Source of the DNA: Verrucomicrobiaceae bacterium
Lineage (GTDB): Bacteria; Verrucomicrobiota; Verrucomicrobiia; Verrucomicrobiales; Verrucomicrobiaceae
NCBI GenBank assembly: GCA_027486585.1
Contig: JAIXOU010000058.1
Location: forward strand, 1-64,000
DNA length: 64,000 bases
Direction of reading: 5' to 3'
This document shows positions 3,768 through 24,488 of this stretch, piece by piece. The notes below the pieces were generated by a model. The model was not told the DNA's origin. It saw only the letters and a program-made list of their open reading frames with translations, and searched no databases. A program made the translations under genes and the position numbers. How positions within the stretch are numbered: the first letter of the stretch is position 1; every line of letters begins with the position of its first letter.

Positions 3768-6700
3768 TTATTTACCCAAGAGAAAAGCTATCAAATCACT
3801 CATCTGATCCTTGGTTATGGCGGCCTCCAGTCCTTCCGGCATGAGGGTCCGGTCGAGGGACTTCATGTCCTTGATCGCGCTGCGGGAGATGGTCTCCTTG
3901 GCTCCGCCCATCATGGCGAGCACGACGGCGTCGCTGGTTTCGTTTTGGATGAGGCCACTAAGGCTGCGGCCGTCTTTCGTCTCGACGGTGTAAGCACTCC
4001 AGCGGGCTTCGAACATGCGGTTGGGGTCGAGGATGTCGGAGAGCAGACCTTCGGGCGGCTTCACCTTCACGTCAGAGAGTGGTGGTCCAACATCGACGCC
4101 CAGAGTGCCGTGCTTGTGGCAAGTAACGCAGATGGTTGAGAAGACTTGCTGGCCGCGTTTGGCGTCGCCTTTCATCGTGGTGGCGACCATGTATTCCTTC
4201 ACGATGGCGGCGCGGTCGGTATTGGCCTCGCCGAAGAGCTTTTTGGCGAGTTCGGCCATTTCGCCTTTGCCGCGCTGATAAGCCCAGCGTTTTTCGACAT
4301 CTACCCACGCGGGCGGGAACTCGCCTTTTTCCATGCGCTTGAAGAGTTCGAGCGCGGTGGTGGCGTTGGCGGTGAGGATGGTCACGAGGTCACGTTTGAG
4401 GCCGGGACCGGCTTTGGGCAGGAGTTCGTAAATGAGCGTCGAGGTGCTGGTGGCGCTGAATTTTTTCAACAAGGCCACGGTGGCCGCAGTGAGCTCCAGC
4501 GGCTGCGTGGTGGTGAGCAGGTTTTTCACCACCGGCTCGACAGCGGCCCATTTCCGCGACGCCAGCAGCGGCAGCACGGCGAGGCGTTGATCGAGCGGTG
4601 CCTTGGCATCGGCGATGATGGTGTCGATCTTCGTTTGAAGCGCGGCGATCTCCTTGGCGGCGTCTTCGTGGCCTTTGGGCAGTTTGGCGAGACCTTGGAG
4701 CAATGCGGGTTTCCACCAGAGGAGTTCGCTGGGTTGCTTTTGGAGAAGGGTGAGCAGTGCGTGGATGTCGCCGGCATCGCCATCAGCGAGCGAACCGGCG
4801 GCAAAGGTGCGGAAGGTGTCGCTCTTGGTGGCGGAGAAGGTGGTGAAGAAGCTGTCGCCGAGCTGGCTGAGGACGCTGCCCATGTTCTTCGATGAAGCGC
4901 TGGCAACCATTTTGGCCATCCATGGGTCTTCGCCATGTTGGGAGAGGATAGTAGCGAGCTCCTTTGTGTCGGTGATGCTGGGGATTTTGAGGAAGAGGGC
5001 GCGTTCGGAGTGCTCGGGGAGAGGTTTGAAGTGTGGTGCAGCCGTCCCGGCTGCGACAGAACCAGCCGAGACGGCTGGACCACTCTTCTTCGGCACCACG
5101 CGCCAGATGCGCCCATGGTTTTCGCCTTGGCGCATGTCGTGGGTTTTGACGAACTCCTCGGGGAAGAAGCGGGCGTGGTCGATCCAGCGGCGGTAGATGT
5201 CGCAGATGTAGATGGCGCCGTCGGGGCCGGTGGTGAAGTTCACGGGGCGGCTCCATTCGTCGCTGCTGCGGAAGAACTCGGTGCGATCACCGACCCGCGT
5301 GGCTTTGAGCGAGGCGCCGTTCGGCTCGATCTTGTAGCGGGTGACGAGCTGGCCGGTGGGATCGGGGACGAAGACGTTGTTTTTGAGTTCGGGCATCAAG
5401 TGGCCGCGATAGACGCCGAGGCCACTGCAGGCGGTGTTCGTGCCAGCGTGCGCATCGGCGGTGGTGTGGGTGATTTGTAGCGGATAGACGCGGGTCTCCG
5501 CGCCGGGCGTGGCGATGTCTTCATGCACCTGCGTGATGCCGGCGTGCGGATTCCGCAGCATGGCCTCGTAGGGCATGACGGTGAACATGAGCGGGTTGCG
5601 ATTCGAGCAGTAGAAGTGGTGGCCGTAGTCGTCGAACGCGCCGCCGTATTGGCCTTTGCCGCCGGTGGGTGTGATCTCGCCGGTCTTGGGGTTCCATTTG
5701 AAGTTGGAACCGGCGACGGATACCGCGGAAGATGGAGGATGGACGATAGAGGATGGAGGCTGAGCGCCTGCGGCTTGATCTATCTTCCCTCCTCCATCTT
5801 CCATCTTCGGATTGGCTGGGTATATTTCACGGGCATCGAGGCCGTTGTTGAAATGCACGCAGCCATCGGGACCCCAGCGCGGCGCACTGACTTGAAGCTG
5901 GCTATGCTTGGGATTGAAACCGCGGATGAGCGGCTTGATGAGGTCGGCTTTGTTGTCGCCGTCGGTGTCTTTGAGGAAGAGAATCTGGCTGCGCGTGGTG
6001 GCGATGAGGCCGCCGTCGTAAGGGAGCAGGCCCTGCACGTTGTCCATGTGGTCGGCAAAGGTCACGGCTTTGTCCATGCGGCCGTCGCCGTTCTCGTCAG
6101 TGAGGAGTTGAATGCGGGAAAGCCAGGGATCACCGGGATTCGGCGGGCCGAGCGGGTAGTCGCGCATGTCGGCAACGAACATGCGGCCTTTTTCATCCCA
6201 GGTGCATTCGACAGGATCGAGCACGAGCGGCTCAGCGGCGACGAGTTGCACTTCATAGGGTCCATCGAGCTGAATGCGCTTCATGCTTTCTTCGGGCGAA
6301 AGGGCTTCGGTTTGGCCATCGCGCACGCTGACATCGCTGCCGCCGCTGGCCTGGATGGCGGACCATTTCTCTTTGAACTCGCCGAGCGGATGCAACTCGT
6401 AGCGACGCACGATCATCTCCGCGCCCTCGGTCTGGAGGAGGATTTTGCCTTCGCTGGGTTTGCAATCGAAGGCCTCGTTGATGAGCGCTCCATTGACGAA
6501 GTATTGCAGCGTGTCGCCCTTGGCGATGACTTCGAGGCGGTTCCACTCGCCGCTGGGGCTTTCGACATCGTTTTTGCCGCGGAAGCCGACCGTGTCGCTC
6601 CAGTCTTCATCGCGACCTTTCCAATTGATGCGGCCTTTGGTCACGGTTTGGCGTGGAGAGCCTTGTTTCCAAATCTTCTCCTTGTCGCGATCGAGCGTGA

Positions 6701-14048: not shown

Positions 14049-14951
14049 ATGTTTCGCCCTCTTTTTTCTCTAGTCCTTGTCTTTTCGCTGCTGACCTCCT
14101 GCGAGAGGCCATCTTCCGTGCGTGCAGATGGGAAAAAACGCATTCTCACGACCTTCACCATCATTCAGGACATCGCTCAAAACGTGGCAGGCGATGCAGC
14201 CGTGGTCGATTCCATCACCAAGCCAGGCGCAGAGATCCACGACTACGAACCCACGCCTCTCGATCTCGTCAAAGCCCAGGATGCCGACCTCGTGCTCTGG
14301 AACGGACTCGGACTGGAGCGGTGGTTTGAGAAATTCCTCCAGCAAGTGCGTGACGTGCCATCTGCCGTGGTTAGCTCAGGCGTTCAGCCCATGAGTATCG
14401 GCGAAGGTCCCTACAACGGAAAGGCCAATCCCCATGCCTGGATGTCGCCAGCAAACGCGATTCGCTATGTCGAAAACATTCGTGAGGCGCTGGTGAAACT
14501 CGATCCTAAAAATGCAGCGACCTACAACGCCAATGCAGCCGCTTACACAGAGAAGCTCAAAGCGGTCGATTCCCCTGTGAGGCAGAAATTAGGCACTCTG
14601 CCTTCGGCCCAAAGATGGCTCGTCAGTTGTGAGGGAGCCTTTTCCTATCTGGCCCGTGATTACGGCATGAACGAGCTCTATCTCTGGCCTGTCAATGCCG
14701 ATCAGGAAGGCGCTCCGCAGCAGGTTCAAAAAGTCGTCGATACCATACGTCGTAATCAGATCCCTGTCGTCTTCAGTGAAAGCACGATCAGTGACAAAGC
14801 CATGCAACAAGTGGCCAAAGAAACTGGTGCTCGTTTTGGTGGCGTGCTCTATGTGGACTCACTGACGGACGCCAGCGGCGCCGCACCGACGTATATGAAG
14901 CTACTTGAAACCAACGCCGACACGATTGTGAAGGCGTTTACTCACCAATGA
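14049..14951 (+). CDS. Manganese/zinc ABC transporter substrate-binding lipoprotein
   Basis: A 300-residue cluster A-I (TroA/PsaA/ZnuA) binding protein. The lipobox LTSC puts the lipidated cysteine at C18. Predicted metal ligands are H64 (IHDYEPTP), H129 (NPHAW), E195 (CEGAFSY) and D270 (YVDSL). Glutamate at the third position, and no His-rich loop, point to manganese or iron rather than zinc. It overlaps the ATPase gene by 4 bp (ATGA) and follows the outer-membrane barrel gene by 12 bp, so all are one operon. Confidence 0.9.
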
Positions 14952-15850
14952 CGCACCCACTCTCCATCGAAGTTTCCAATGTCACCGTTGCCTATCCGAA
15001 CGGGCACACGGCGCTGAGTGATGCCTCTTTCACTCTGAAGCAGGGAACCATCGCTGCTCTCGTCGGCGTGAACGGCAGTGGCAAGAGCACCCTTTTCAAA
15101 GCCATCATGGGCTTTGTCCAGCCCGTCAGCGGTAGCATCCGACTGGCTGGTGACACGGTCAAAGAATCACGAAAACACAAGCTCGTGGCCTATGTGCCAC
15201 AGACTGAAGAAGTGGATTGGACCTTCCCCGTCAGCGTTTGGGATGTGGTCATGATGGGCCGTTACGGACACATGAATTTTCTGCGCATCCCCAGTGCTGA
15301 AGACAAGCGAATGGTGCGCGAAAGCCTGGCCAGGGTCGGCATGACCGATTTTCAAGAACGCCAGATCGGCGAACTCAGCGGCGGCCAAAAGAAGCGCGTC
15401 TTTCTGGCTCGGGCACTGGCTCAAAATGGTCAAATCATCTTGCTCGATGAGCCCTTCACTGGCGTCGATGTCACGACTGAGGAAGCCATCATCGAACTAC
15501 TGAGGGCTCTGCGTGACGAGGGCCGCATCATTCTCGTCTCCACTCATAATCTGGGCAGTGTGCCCGAGTTCTGTGATCAGGTCGTACTCGTGAATCGGAC
15601 CGTTTTAGCCGCTGGGCCACTCGAAGAGGTCTTCACGGAGGATAACCTTAGCCGGGCCTTTGGCGGCGTGCTACGCCAGTTCCATTTTGAAAGCAGCACC
15701 ATCCAGGATCATGATGGAAAAACCGTCAAACTTCTCACCGATGACGAACGGCCCCTGGTGTTTGGCAAAGACGGGCATCTCGAATACAAGGACCGCTCTG
15801 AGCGAGAGGAACTGGTGAAGCAACGAGAGAAAATAGAAGATGGAAAATAG
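14948..15850 (+). CDS. Manganese/zinc ABC transporter ATPase
   Basis: A 300-residue ATPase of the metal (MZT) ABC family. It has Walker [10 protein letters not shown] (40-48), the signature LSGGQKKR, Walker B ILLDEP and the switch histidine in STHNLGSV. The C-terminal tail of about 50 residues beyond the ATPase core is polar. Its last codons, including the TAG stop, are encoded by the left heptamer array (15830-15857) that flanks the inserted S23 gene. The natural C-terminus has thus probably been replaced or extended by the insertion. Its partner permeases follow after the S23 gene. Confidence 0.92.
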
Positions 15851-15857
15851 AAGATAG
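15830..15857 (+). repeat. Left heptamer array of S23 cassette
   Basis: Four 7-bp units (AAAATAG, AAGATGG, AAAATAG, AAGATAG), equally describable as two 14-bp units. The array encodes the end of the ABC ATPase, including its TAG stop at 15848-15850. Confidence 0.8.
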
Positions 15858-15876
15858 ATCCAAACCAACCTGCGCT

Positions 15877-16272
15877 ATGAAGGAAGACTATCGGCCTAGA
15901 AAAGTGATCAATTCATTTAGAGATCTTGATGTCTATCAAATGGCAAGACAGGCCTCCTATCAGATCTTTGTGATAACCAAAGATTTCCCAAAGGATGAAA
16001 AGTATTCCATGACAGACCAAGTCCGTCGTTCCTCGCGTGCCGTGGCTAGCATGATAGCTGAAGCTTGGGCGCGCCGCAGGTATATGGCTGCCTTTATCGA
16101 CAAACTTAATCAAGCTCAGGGCGAAGCAATGGAAAGCCAAGCGTGGTTGGATCAAGCGCTCGACTGTAAATACATGTCGTCCGAGAAACATGCAGAAATC
16201 GACGCCGCTATCCAAGCAATTGGCGGCAAACTCCAGCGTATGATCGACAAGGCCGACACCTTCTGCGGCTAA
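15877..16272 (+). CDS. Four helix bundle protein (S23/IVP family)
   Basis: A 131-residue protein of the four-helix-bundle family first found in 23S rRNA intervening sequences and related to the Avd protein of diversity-generating retroelements. Typical marks are FRDLDVYQMA at the N-terminus, DQVRRSSRAVASMIAEAWARR in the second helix and ESQAWLDQAL in the third. The first arginine-rich segment is likely to bind nucleic acid. It has no obvious link to manganese uptake. It sits between the ATPase and first permease gene, flanked on both sides by inverted heptamer arrays, which suggests an inserted cassette. No ribosome site is seen before the ATG. Confidence 0.9.
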   Translation: MKEDYRPRKVINSFRDLDVYQMARQASYQIFVITKDFPKDEKYSMTDQVRRSSRAVASMIAEAWARRRYMAAFIDKLNQAQGEAMESQAWLDQALDCKYMSSEKHAEIDAAIQAIGGKLQRMIDKADTFCG

Positions 16273-16276
16273 CCTC

Positions 16277-16297
16277 AATCTTCCATCTTCCATTCTC
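16277..16297 (-). repeat. Right heptamer array of S23 cassette
   Basis: Three 7-bp units, AATCTTC, CATCTTC and CATTCTC, inverted relative to the left array. It ends 4 bp before the GTG start of the first permease gene and so occupies its ribosome-binding region. Confidence 0.75.
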
Positions 16298-16301
16298 CAA
16301 A

Positions 16302-17192
16302 GTGCCCTCCCTCCTCACACCCTTCGAATACGACTACATGCTGAAAGCCATTCTCGTGAGTGGCTTGATCGGTGGCGTATGCGCATTTTTATCCTGCTTT
16401 ATCACGCTGAAAGGCTGGTCACTTATGGGGGATGCTCTTTCTCATGCCGTGGTTCCAGGCGTTTCGCTGGCTTGGATCATCGGATTGCCTTTTTCAGTCG
16501 GTGCCTTCATCGCAGGGATTCTCGCCGCACTGACCATGGGCTGGATCAAAAGGAAATCAGGGCTGCGTGAGGATGCCGTGATCGGCGTGGTGTTTACGAG
16601 TTGGTTCGCACTGGGCCTGCTGCTACTCTCCCTGTATCCGAGCCATCTGAATCTCAAGACCATCATCTTTGGTAACATCCTAGCCATCTCTGATCCTGAT
16701 GTCCTGCAAGTGCTCATTATTGCCGGCCTCTCCATCCTCGTGCTCACGATCAAGTGGCGGGATTTACTGCTTTATTGCTTCGATGAAGCCCATGCCCGCG
16801 CCATTGGTCTGAATACAGGGTTTCTGCACTTCCTCCTGCTCTCCTTACTTGCAGCGACAGCCGTTGCCGCCCTGCAAACCGTGGGTGCCTGCCTCGTCGT
16901 CGCCATGCTCGTGACTCCGGGTGCCACGGCTTATTTACTGACCGATCGTTTTGGCAGGATGCTAGGCATTGCCACTTTGACCGGAGCGCTGTGCGGCATC
17001 ACGGGAGCCTATGCCAGCTATTTCATCAATGGCAGCACTGGCGGCTGCATCGTGGTGCTGCAAACGCTCGTGTTCCTCACTGCGCTCATTTTTGCACCCA
17101 AGCATGGTCTGCTGGCCACACGCCGACTGCGTCGTCTGGCCACACAGAGCTTCACCCCAGCCAGCAGAGATAAAGCTGGCATCGTGTCATGA
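16302..17192 (+). CDS. Manganese/zinc ABC transporter permease 1
   Basis: A 296-residue permease of the ABC-3 (metal) family with about eight to nine hydrophobic segments. It has the family sequence GWSLMGDALSHAVVPG and, in the second half, CFDEAHARAIGLNTG. The start is GTG at 16302, directly after the right heptamer array. The ribosome site is therefore missing or replaced, which may lower translation relative to the rest of the operon. It overlaps permease 2 by 4 bp (ATGA). It is about 20 residues longer than permease 2 owing to a C-terminal tail. Confidence 0.9.
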   Translation: MPSLLTPFEYDYMLKAILVSGLIGGVCAFLSCFITLKGWSLMGDALSHAVVPGVSLAWIIGLPFSVGAFIAGILAALTMGWIKRKSGLREDAVIGVVFTSWFALGLLLLSLYPSHLNLKTIIFGNILAISDPDVLQVLIIAGLSILVLTIKWRDLLLYCFDEAHARAIGLNTGFLHFLLLSLLAATAVAALQTVGACLVVAMLVTPGATAYLLTDRFGRMLGIATLTGALCGITGAYASYFINGSTGGCIVVLQTLVFLTALIFAPKHGLLATRRLRRLATQSFTPASRDKAGIVS

Positions 17193-18013
17193 ACTGGCTG
17201 ACTCCATTGCAATATCCCTTCATGGTCGAAGCACTCATGATCAGTGCTCTGGTCGGCAGCGTGTGCGCCGTGCTTTCCTGCTACCTCGTGCTGAAAGGTT
17301 GGTCACTCATGGGGGATGCGATTTCTCATGCCGTGCTGCCCGGCATTGTCATCGCCTACATGCTCGGGTTGCCACTCGCCGTCGGGGCCTTTGCAGCTGG
17401 GCTCTTCTGCGCTACGGCGACAGGCTGGATCAAGGCCAGCACACGGATCAAAGAAGACACCGTGATGGGCATTGTCTTTACTGGCATGTTTGCCTTTGGG
17501 CTCGTTCTCTTTACGAAAGTACAGACAGATGCCCACCTGAATCACATTCTCTTTGGCAACATCCTCGGCATCGAGCGCGCTGACCTTCTGCAAACCATCA
17601 TTGCAGCCGTGATGACTCTAAGCGTCGTTTTGATCATGCGCAAAGACCTGATGCTCTTCTGCTTTGATCCCGCTCATGCTCGCGCCATCGGGTTAAACAC
17701 CACGCTCATGCACTACGTGCTGCTGTCCTTGCTTTCTGGGACCATTGTCGCCTCCATGCAGGCAGTCGGTATCATTCTGGTCGTGGCCATGCTCGTCACG
17801 CCAGGTTGCACGGCTAGGCTGCTGACCGACCGCTTTGATCGGATGTTAATGATTGCCACAGCCTCCTCGGTGCTAGCGAGTTGCCTGGGCGTTTACGTTA
17901 GTTTTTTCATCAACGGTACCACCGGTGCCTGCATCGTCTTAGCTCAAACATTGCTATTTGTGTTAGCCTTCGCTTTCTCGAAATATACAACCCACAGAAA
18001 TCTTGCGAGGTAA
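17189..18013 (+). CDS. Manganese/zinc ABC transporter permease 2
   Basis: A 274-residue ABC-3 family permease, clearly paralogous to the preceding gene (shared GWSLMGDA-SHAV, FCFDPAHARAIGLNT and LVVAMLVTPG). Two permease genes after one ATPase gene is the arrangement of SitCD/MntCD-type manganese and iron transporters, where the two form a heterodimer. It is the last gene of the operon, with no strong terminator visible in the 45 bp before the convergent gene. Confidence 0.9.
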   Translation: MNWLTPLQYPFMVEALMISALVGSVCAVLSCYLVLKGWSLMGDAISHAVLPGIVIAYMLGLPLAVGAFAAGLFCATATGWIKASTRIKEDTVMGIVFTGMFAFGLVLFTKVQTDAHLNHILFGNILGIERADLLQTIIAAVMTLSVVLIMRKDLMLFCFDPAHARAIGLNTTLMHYVLLSLLSGTIVASMQAVGIILVVAMLVTPGCTARLLTDRFDRMLMIATASSVLASCLGVYVSFFINGTTGACIVLAQTLLFVLAFAFSKYTTHRNLAR

Positions 18014-22212: not shown

Positions 22213-23622
22213 ATGGCCGACCAAGGACTCTATCAGTCACAGACTCAAAAGCTAGCTATCGGCCCGCAGATGCAGCAGAGCCTGCAGATTCTGCAGGCGC
22301 CGACTCTTGATCTGCGCCAAATCATTCAGCAGGAGATCAATATCAATCCTGTTTTGGAATTGGAGAGCCCAGAGGTCTCCCTAGAAGACACGGCCCCTGA
22401 AGATCCTGCCGACCGCGATGAGCTCGACTCCATGTCCCAAATGGACGAGGAATGGCGCGAGTATTGGGCCCAGAGCATGATGCAGTCCCCGAATCGCCGT
22501 ACCGACGATCAGGAGCGCTGGCAATTCCTGATGGACTCCATCGTGGTCCCGATGACTCTTCAGGAGCATCTCACCACGCAGCTCCGCACCTCTGAAATTA
22601 AAGATCCTGTTCTCATCAAGAATCTTGAGTTTCTGATCGGCAGCATCGATGACCGTGGTTTTCTCCATAGCACGGTGGAAGAGCTGAGCCTTCAACATGG
22701 CATCCCTGTTGATGATCTACATGAGGCCAAGGCAACCCTGATCACCTTTGACCCCGTCGGTGTCGGTTCCGAAGATTTGCGCGAGTGTCTGATGATTCAG
22801 CTAGATCGACTGAGCAAGCGCCAGAGCCTGGCTTATCGCCTAGTGGACATGTATCTGGAAGACTTGGCCAACAAGCGCTATCCGATCTTGGCCAGAAAAC
22901 TAGGCATGCCGATCGAACAGATTTCCCGTGCAGCCGACTTCATCAGCACCTTGGACCCGCGCCCTGCTTCGCGTTTCAGTGTCAGCTCGAACAACTACGT
23001 CAATCCAGACATCATCGTCGAGCGTCAGGCTGGTGAGTGGGTGCCTGTGATGAATGGCGATGAGCTCCCCCATCTGCGTTTAAGCAATGCCTATAAAGAC
23101 ATGCTGGGCCAGTCTGATAGCAGCACGGAAGTGCGGAACTACATCCGAGATAAAATCCGCAGTGGTAAGTTTCTCATCCGCAGCATCCAGCAGAGGCAGC
23201 AAACCATTCACAAAATTGCCGTCAAGATCTTGGCGCATCAGCAGGAATTCCTGGAAAACGGCACTAGCCAGCTGCGCCCACTGAACATGGCTCAGGTAGC
23301 CGACGAAGTTGGCGTTCATGAGACCACCGTCAGTCGCGCCATTTCCGGCAAGTACATGGCCACGCCGCATGGTGTCTTTGAGCTCAAATTCTTCTTCAGC
23401 CATGGCGTGAAAACCGATTCAGGCGAAGATCTCAGCAATACCAGCGTCAAAAACGCCATTTCTGATCTCATCAAAACGGAGCCCAAAAGCAAACCACTTA
23501 GCGATGACAAGCTCGCAAAGTTGCTTGATAAACAGGGAATTAAGGTCGCAAGGCGCACCGTCGCGAAATACCGTGAAGCACTCGGCATCTTACCAAGCCA
23601 TCTCAGGAAGTCGTTTTCCTGA
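22213..23622 (+). CDS. rpoN: RNA polymerase sigma-54 factor
   Basis: A 469-residue sigma-54. Region I is the Gln-rich activator-interacting segment (about 1-50: QSQTQKLAIGPQMQQSLQILQAP). An acidic linker (about 55-100) and the core-binding domain follow. Near the end is the helix-turn-helix VADEVGVHETTVSRAISGKY and the RpoN box ARRTVAKYRE (about 446-455), which reads the -24 element. I start at the ATG at 22213 because the longer TTG-started frame would overlap the putative sigma-54 promoter. The factor needs AAA+ enhancer-binding activators, none of which is in this window. Confidence 0.95.
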   Translation: MADQGLYQSQTQKLAIGPQMQQSLQILQAPTLDLRQIIQQEININPVLELESPEVSLEDTAPEDPADRDELDSMSQMDEEWREYWAQSMMQSPNRRTDDQERWQFLMDSIVVPMTLQEHLTTQLRTSEIKDPVLIKNLEFLIGSIDDRGFLHSTVEELSLQHGIPVDDLHEAKATLITFDPVGVGSEDLRECLMIQLDRLSKRQSLAYRLVDMYLEDLANKRYPILARKLGMPIEQISRAADFISTLDPRPASRFSVSSNNYVNPDIIVERQAGEWVPVMNGDELPHLRLSNAYKDMLGQSDSSTEVRNYIRDKIRSGKFLIRSIQQRQQTIHKIAVKILAHQQEFLENGTSQLRPLNMAQVADEVGVHETTVSRAISGKYMATPHGVFELKFFFSHGVKTDSGEDLSNTSVKNAISDLIKTEPKSKPLSDDKLAKLLDKQGIKVARRTVAKYREALGILPSHLRKSFS

Positions 23623-24433: not shown

Positions 24434-24439
24434 GGGGTG

Positions 24440-24488
24440 GTTCTTGGTTCTCTGTTCTCTGTTCTCTGTTCTCTGTTCTCTGTTTTTG
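24440..24488 (-). repeat. Heptamer tandem repeat (GTTCTCT type), 7 copies
   Basis: Seven 7-bp units start with GTT at 24440, 24447, 24454, 24461, 24468, 24475 and 24482; four are identical GTTCTCT. The array lies 6 bp upstream of the deacetylase start, occupying its ribosome-binding region. The unit resembles that at 1751-1785. There is one arm only. Confidence 0.85.

Follow-up and report, generated by a model that had tools for sequence, protein, structure and literature searches.

An S23 gene within a manganese-type ABC operon

The window, by which we mean the whole 64,000-nucleotide stretch of Verrucomicrobiaceae DNA analyzed here, carries a ZnuA/ABC/ABC-3 transporter operon in which an S23 gene separates the ATPase from the first permease. 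The features of the operon, followed by two further repeat regions of the window, are:

14049-14951, plus strand: ZnuA-family metal-binding protein, first gene of the operon (PF01297, 304 bits)
14948-15850, plus strand: ABC ATPase, its stop codon (15848-15850) within the left array (PF00005, 113.7 bits; open reading frame)
15828-15857, plus strand: left (upstream) purine-rich array, 7/14-bp period, unit GAAAATAGAAGATG (repeat and inverted-arm analysis)
15877-16272, plus strand: S23/four-helix-bundle protein gene, 131 aa (PF05635, 96.1 bits; TIGR02436, 85.4 bits)
16278-16297, minus strand: right (downstream) array, inverted counterpart of the left, with ATCTTCC units on the plus strand
16302-17192, plus strand: ABC-3 permease 1, GTG start (PF00950, 285.1 bits)
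17189-18013, plus strand: ABC-3 permease 2 (PF00950, 301.1 bits)
5727-5808, no strand: hairpin-only palindromic array without a gene, similar GGAAGATGG-type unit (RNA fold z -5.43, not equaled in 200 shuffles)
24438-24487, no strand: single GTTCTCT array in one orientation only (repeat scan)

Both S23 scores exceed their cut-offs (33.8 bits for PF05635, 24 bits for TIGR02436). A MntR gene lies upstream of the operon on the other strand (NF003025, 153.7 bits; cut-off 138) and, because it accompanies a ZnuA-type gene, an ATPase and two ABC-3 permeases, the label “manganese” is reasonable. The original prediction, that an S23 gene splits such an operon, agrees with this arrangement in the order of ATPase, S23, and permease; it did not mention the second permease.

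It had further described a purine-rich left array and an inverted, pyrimidine-rich right one, and both are present. The unit GAAAATAGAAGATG is repeated about twice at about 15828-15857 (TRF score 54), and the arms at 15829-15857 and 16269-16297, separated by 411 nt, are 79% complementary over 29 nt. The arms are short (about four units on the left, two to three on the right) and are predicted to pair into a stem in RNA (z -2.45, equaled by 1 of 100 shuffles). As anticipated, the left array supplies the TAG that terminates the ATPase frame, and the right array takes the place of the permease ribosome site: the GTG at 16302 falls 4 nt past the array, after a pyrimidine-rich stretch with no ribosome site. 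In relatives with an empty junction, the ATPase end overlaps or almost touches the permease start and GGAGG is present (e.g., ..AAGGAGGCTGGGGAATGACC.. in L046). S23 is the sole recognized gene between the arrays, with no transposase inside the element as an insertion sequence would have.

Short-period arrays flank S23 genes as a class

Short-period arrays accompany S23 genes in many phyla. At least one side carries an array at 123 of 141 S23 loci (20.8 expected) and both sides do at 72, an array being a run of at least 8 at periods 7-11 and the expectation coming from 72 of 937 control windows. These loci are best-scoring matches rather than a random sample; loci of one genus are non-independent, and the same-genus sets include orthologous sites. 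The set represents 141 of 148 loci, six having been dropped for short flanks (L082, L100, L108, L132, L163, and L166) and one as a duplicate of L012 (L101), and the scan of named genomes contributed 80 loci of many phyla, the best of 548 confirmed. The period spectrum over the 141 loci is clearly raised at 7, 8, 10, and 14, and shifted windows give an expectation of 3.2 flanks with period-7 runs of at least 11, whereas 49 upstream and 44 downstream flanks have them.

The two arms of a locus also match each other as inverted copies. The median own-arm score is 19, compared with 9.5 for mismatched pairs and 10 for same-locus shifted controls (n = 528), and 44 of 141 loci lie above the 99th percentile of mismatched pairs, compared with 1 of the 528 controls. 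A locus ranks its own downstream flank first in 44 of 141 cases and among the top five in 86, so own arms are not always unique. Among relatives, matched arms at a score of at least 17 flank 29 of 37 S23 genes, 0 of 30 PIN genes, and 0 of 8 HepT genes; as units are shared within a subfamily, only 8 of these 37 S23 loci rise above the 99th percentile of mismatched pairs. On the coding strand, purines predominate in upstream arrays (median 0.67, n = 98) and pyrimidines in downstream ones (0.33, n = 93), a polarity that may in part reflect ribosome-site function. Layouts vary: with A for an array and A' for its inverted partner, we observe A-S23-A', A-A'-S23-A', and A-S23-A2-loop-A'.

S23 was found in 51 of 56 relatives and in 100 of 144 genomes of the phylum. 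The genome of the window (G000, 6.5 Mb) has 11 PF05635 matches, of which 8 score above the cut-off; each of these 8 is flanked on one or both sides by an array (by eye; run of at least 10), and the units differ. The weak matches L009-L011 have longer open frames and perhaps represent a separate branch: by eye, arrays are absent at L009 and L010, and L011 has a gene-less palindromic array just upstream only.

Array units follow the S23 subfamily

S23 subfamily and array unit are inherited together across phyla while neighboring genes change, and the two arms stay matched. Consensus units group by subfamily: S23 proteins of the MRKQFPFEKLEVWQ type occur with 10-bp AACCACCGTC-like units and the MKITRHTELEVFQRAF subfamily with 8-bp units, GGAGACTT being the 8-bp unit of one subfamily. 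FEDLIVWQKAH-type proteins have AAGACAG-, AATTCAG-, and AGGAGTC-like 7-bp units at cyanobacterial, desulfobacterial, acidobacterial, clostridial, and other loci. GAAGATG is likewise a local unit of the window element and not a general signature.

Protein similarity and array similarity correlate across phyla (Mantel r 0.42, 0 of 2000 permutations) for 74 named loci, taken from the best 80 of 548. Array similarity on the wrong strand correlates with protein as well (r 0.22, 0 of 2000 permutations), at a mean similarity of 11.0 versus 14.0 for the right strand. Within the retrieved flanks, homologous neighbors are absent from 17 of 20 tested pairs, drawn from the 25 most similar; pairs with some homologous neighbors are L102/L104 (76%), L111/L130 (79%), and L159/L160 (28%). 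Within subfamilies, the two arms belonging to an element are more alike than arms taken from different elements in 64 of 89 cases (p 6.6e-8). The GTTCTCT unit of the single array at 24438-24487 also flanks S23 genes beginning MKIERFED in G006, G011, G016, and G024, all of the same genus.

Gain and loss at tight intercistronic junctions

S23 elements are gained and lost at tight intercistronic junctions of related species, and they exist either with the gene or as bare hairpins. The window operon (junction A) was compared across 14 same-genus loci with an orthologous permease: 2 carry S23 (G000 and G020), 4 carry a hairpin without S23 (G003, G006, G008, and G011), 7 are empty (0-15 nt), and 1 is unreadable. 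The four hairpins have the unit GAATGAC, and no S23 gene carrying this unit was found among those read, which are part of the S23 genes of these genomes. Divergence has blurred the insertion edges. GAATGAC resembles ..GGGGAATGACC.. at this junction only; by eye, the units at the other three junctions are unlike their targets, and we rejected the idea that arrays are templated by the target.

Junction B precedes a gene that, from sequence and general knowledge, we take to be SIS-domain-like. Its 30 loci comprise 1 with S23 (G000 only), 6 with a hairpin, 10 empty, 2 with another insert, and 11 unreadable. The hairpins, assessed by eye as at junction A, belong to other families, including that of the relative G024, whose neighbor is 95% identical. 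The other inserts, in L213 and L224, are 334-335 bp long and show no arrays.

Junction C lies before what is presumably, on the same grounds, an ABC-2 permease-like gene. Here G000 has array-S23-array2-loop-array'. Its sister G003, with a 98% identical neighbor protein, shares the loop in the order array-loop-array', with no S23 between the array units. In our reading, array units form the boundaries of this difference in presence and absence. We left out the remaining 28 loci, which are more distant.

Junction D lies in an operon that we assume, again on these grounds, to be a nitrate-type ABC transporter. S23 occurs at 7 of 18 loci, 9 are empty (16-17 nt), 1 holds a GxxExxY element, and 1 is unreadable. 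The S23 copies are 80-90% identical to that of G000, so some insertions look old, and the elements are antisense to the host operon. On an ATPase tree of 17 of the 18 loci (L438 left out), 4 changes of S23 presence are needed, at least 3 of them on supported branches; the S23 label is not significantly clustered on this tree (69 of 500 shuffles as low).

By eye, no target-site duplication is evident at junctions A and D, where the flanks have diverged, and no transposition event or intermediate was seen. Among 20 stretches compared, none proved to be a near-identical copy elsewhere in one genome. The closest pair of the 20, L181/L182, reflects a duplicated operon rather than recent element copies. 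Likewise, a low pS between L002 and L026 was rejected as a sign of recent transfer: 1890 bp are 94% identical and, because these include the upstream gene, the similarity is not specific to the element.

The junctions bear on whether S23 is an ordinary operon gene whose arrays form a control region—by TRAP-like autoregulation, in which S23 would bind the purine-rich repeats of the 5' arm in its mRNA, or as a processing stem—with no mobility. Such a role would suit the purine/pyrimidine polarity of the arrays and the pairing of the window arms in the predicted fold. It would also suit the orientation of S23, which agrees with both neighbors at 89 of 135 loci and opposes both at 7 (a comparison drawing on 148 loci, L101 included), and the purifying selection on the gene (pN 0.006-0.168 versus pS 0.109-0.813 in 13 pairs; e.g., 0.035 versus 0.623). 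We nonetheless consider it highly improbable, as relatives have empty junctions A, B, and D; similar S23 proteins recur in unrelated gene contexts; arrays exist without any gene; and a GxxExxY gene with inverted arrays occupies the same junction D.

Gene-less hairpins and other bracketed genes

Within 456 kb of G000 chosen to cover five S23 loci, each of these loci was detected as an array with an inverted partner, along with four gene-less places: 5727-5808 of the window, C70:70321, C67:52813-52916, and C88:19309-19478. By eye, the units at three of the four resemble those of S23 elements in that genome. Period-9 matches at window position 22266, C117:107092, and C117:115540 did not resemble the others and were excluded. 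Another, non-overlapping sample of G000 (614 kb) yielded 3 array/inverted-partner places versus 0 in shuffled sequence; they are two GGATGAA-type hairpins and one array pair around HepT/MNT-type genes.

A second gene family, GxxExxY (PF13366, PDDEXK_3), is bracketed in a similar manner. Inverted arms match at a score of at least 17 in 21 of 29 loci from relatives and 24 of 29 from the phylum, 1 of 30 loci having been dropped from each set for short flanks. Mismatched pairs score high too (95th percentile 18 in the phylum set; 8 of 29 loci from relatives exceed the 99th percentile) because arms of the CACGGAGG, CCACAGAG, and ACACGGAAT types recur. Few of these loci show clear tandem periodicity: period-9 runs of 11 or more occur in 4 and 3 of 29 flanks in relatives and in 5 and 3 of 29 in the phylum. 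The junction D element (L441, in G029) is 710 bp long and comprises a GxxExxY gene (TIGR04256, 137.2 bits; cut-off 35) and inverted arrays of its own (CTCACGCAAAGGCGCAAAGG), at a place where relatives have S23 or nothing. The CCACAGAG-type hairpins at junction B may be gene-less GxxExxY elements, as their appearance suggests.

A HepT/MNT-type pair on G000 contig C108 (L320:1-1010) has a GAGATGGA array on one side and an inverted TCTCCATTCC array on the other; HepT scores 105.8 bits, and its partner is one that we presume to be MNT. The pair is possibly a third kind of cargo. HepT was rejected as a general cargo, the matched-arm test giving 0 of 8 even though the G000 pair is bracketed by arrays; with its 200-bp window, this test may overlook two-gene modules.

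These observations could also be read the other way around, with the arrays as the mobile or expanding DNA and S23 and GxxExxY as passengers, gained and lost by recombination between units because intergenic arrays would be frequent, neutral sites of insertion. By eye, S23 lies between direct array copies in L004, L025, L031, L032, and L018, and the G000/G003 pair differs in whether S23 stands between units; junctions A and B often hold bare hairpins, and the HepT/MNT-type pair is bracketed by arrays once. Against a passenger role, the unit of the array varies with the S23 subfamily across phyla, strand polarity being mostly kept, and the matched-arm test found no PIN or HepT gene among 30 and 8. 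Moreover, 614 kb of G000 holds just the 3 array/inverted-partner places, yet arrays occur at 123 of 141 S23 genes. Passengers on mobile arrays are therefore, in our estimation, unlikely.

The S23 protein and comparison with known systems

We know of no catalytic site in S23. The solved relatives 2gsc and 2rld, found by sequence, have five chains each, and S23 is described as a homopentameric toroid in the available part of PMC4990558. Avd, of diversity-generating retroelements (DGRs), is homologous to the PF05635 family (PMC10053308, text available in part), and the bAvd and DivGenRetAVD models match the S23 four-helix bundle. The window protein differs from Avd in scoring under both model cut-offs (bAvd 35.8 versus 40; NF033474 33.3 versus 80), with no reverse transcriptase (RT) near its gene. 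A defense system was considered and rejected: PADLOC has no match for the window protein and two weak matches (E 0.005 and 0.008) for L012.

Intervening sequences (IVSs) of rRNA genes include hairpins that hold no S23 gene. Other IVSs carry S23 between complementary ends and are regarded as selfish (PMC4990558, in part). The window element resembles the latter in having S23 between complementary, stem-forming ends and in its sporadic distribution; it differs in lying between ABC protein genes rather than in rRNA and in having ends made of tandem 7-, 8-, or 10-bp arrays whose unit changes with the subfamily, as compared with the IVSs in the accessible text of that source.

This likeness raises the prospect of an intercistronic IVS at the RNA level, with RNase III cutting the stem from the operon mRNA and copies arising via an RT acting in trans; rRNA IVSs are removed by RNase III with no ligation afterward. 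The S23-bearing IVSs (PMC4990558, in part) and the relationship of S23 to Avd, a partner of DGR RTs, speak for it. Against it, the Avd models fall below their cut-offs and the junction D elements are antisense to the operon. S23 loci inside rRNA were also rejected, as four 23S marker strings are absent from the loci bar one chance 11-mer in L030; no Rfam match was found in L003. An RT in trans fared no better, the only PF00078 match of G000 (contig C113, L201) belonging to a group II intron. We judge an RNA-level origin to be distinctly unlikely. The intron RNA adjoining this RT (RF02005, 111 bits) seems, by eye against L026, to sit in the right-hand array of the S23 element L002.

Two further repeat systems invite comparison. 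REPINs and their RAYT transposases share extragenic short inverted repeats that form hairpins, as here, a repeat unit linked to a dedicated protein, and hairpins as non-autonomous copies; they have one conserved REP rather than tandem arrays and a tyrosine transposase rather than a four-helix bundle or GxxExxY protein (PMC3116915, in part). The TAACTGA heptamers of Beggiatoaceae and some Cyanobacteria and Bacteroidetes, for which a repeat-binding protein has been put forward as a candidate mobile component, are likewise intergenic 7-bp tandem units; they differ in having one fixed unit and mostly direct repeats, and the terms “S23”, “helix bundle”, and “intervening” are absent from the accessible text (PMC4679880). 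We found no report of S23 or GxxExxY bracketed by inverted short-period arrays in open-access PMC papers; this silence is weak evidence of absence. The available parts of PMC10910872, PMC8700078, PMC8934634, PMC4853749, and PMC3542288 do not mention arrays around either family.

A probable family of very small mobile elements

In many phyla, S23 and its mirror-image arrays appear to come and go between bacterial genes as a unit. S23 is therefore probably the hallmark of a family of tiny mobile elements that has escaped notice. The window feature is likely to be one copy of such an element, a palindromic tandem array plus S23, and we favor, with similar conviction, a mobile palindromic-array element in which S23 is its own acting protein. 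In its favor are the arrays and matched arms of S23 loci, the co-inheritance of unit and protein, the gains and losses at junctions, and the purifying selection on S23. This reading agrees in part with the original prediction of a non-autonomous mobile unit with heptamer arrays as ends. The empty orthologous sites it called for occur at junctions A (7 of 14), B (10 of 30), and D (9 of 18), arrays are linked to S23 genes, and one difference (G000/G003) reads as array-bounded; a restriction to heptamers and to S23 was too narrow. The proposed GAAGATG/CATCTTC signature holds for the local unit alone and, because units differ with S23 subfamily, a search with it would miss most elements. Neither contrary outcome that it had named, S23 always present at this site without arrays or arrays unlinked to S23 genes, was observed.

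We propose the following working model. The element would be a palindromic tandem array with arms of 7-, 8-, or 10-bp units and an S23 gene inside or against one arm. The pentameric S23 ring may bind its cognate unit as a single strand or hairpin, at about one unit per subunit, and could thereby mark and protect the DNA or RNA of the element while it is copied or joined elsewhere. Cutting and joining would come from replication and repair or from another enzyme; the GxxExxY sister class would bring its own PD-(D/E)XK-type nuclease. Bare hairpins might depend on movement in trans, as is believed of REPINs and RAYT, and hairpin-templated copying would keep the two arms alike. We suggest that intercistronic insertions survive because the genes stay unbroken and because expression of S23 comes mostly from the host operon.

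A broader proposal, to which we give about even weight, is that S23 and GxxExxY are signature genes of one undescribed, phylum-crossing mobile class with protein-recognized, co-evolving palindromic ends. The rRNA IVSs would then be the subset that landed in rRNA hairpins, and many scattered heptamer arrays and hairpins would be gene-less remnants. Such a class would give two common protein families with no known role a testable job, suggest a possible origin for intergenic heptamer and hairpin repeats, and provide a link to the puzzling rRNA intervening sequences. It would also represent a mobile element with re-writable repeat-array ends that apparently co-evolve with a small ring-shaped protein.

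Finally, viral contigs carry S23 genes as well (15 loci, L390-L404); by eye, about 12 of these have arrays, a count that includes near-duplicate contigs, and phages may therefore carry S23 elements between hosts.
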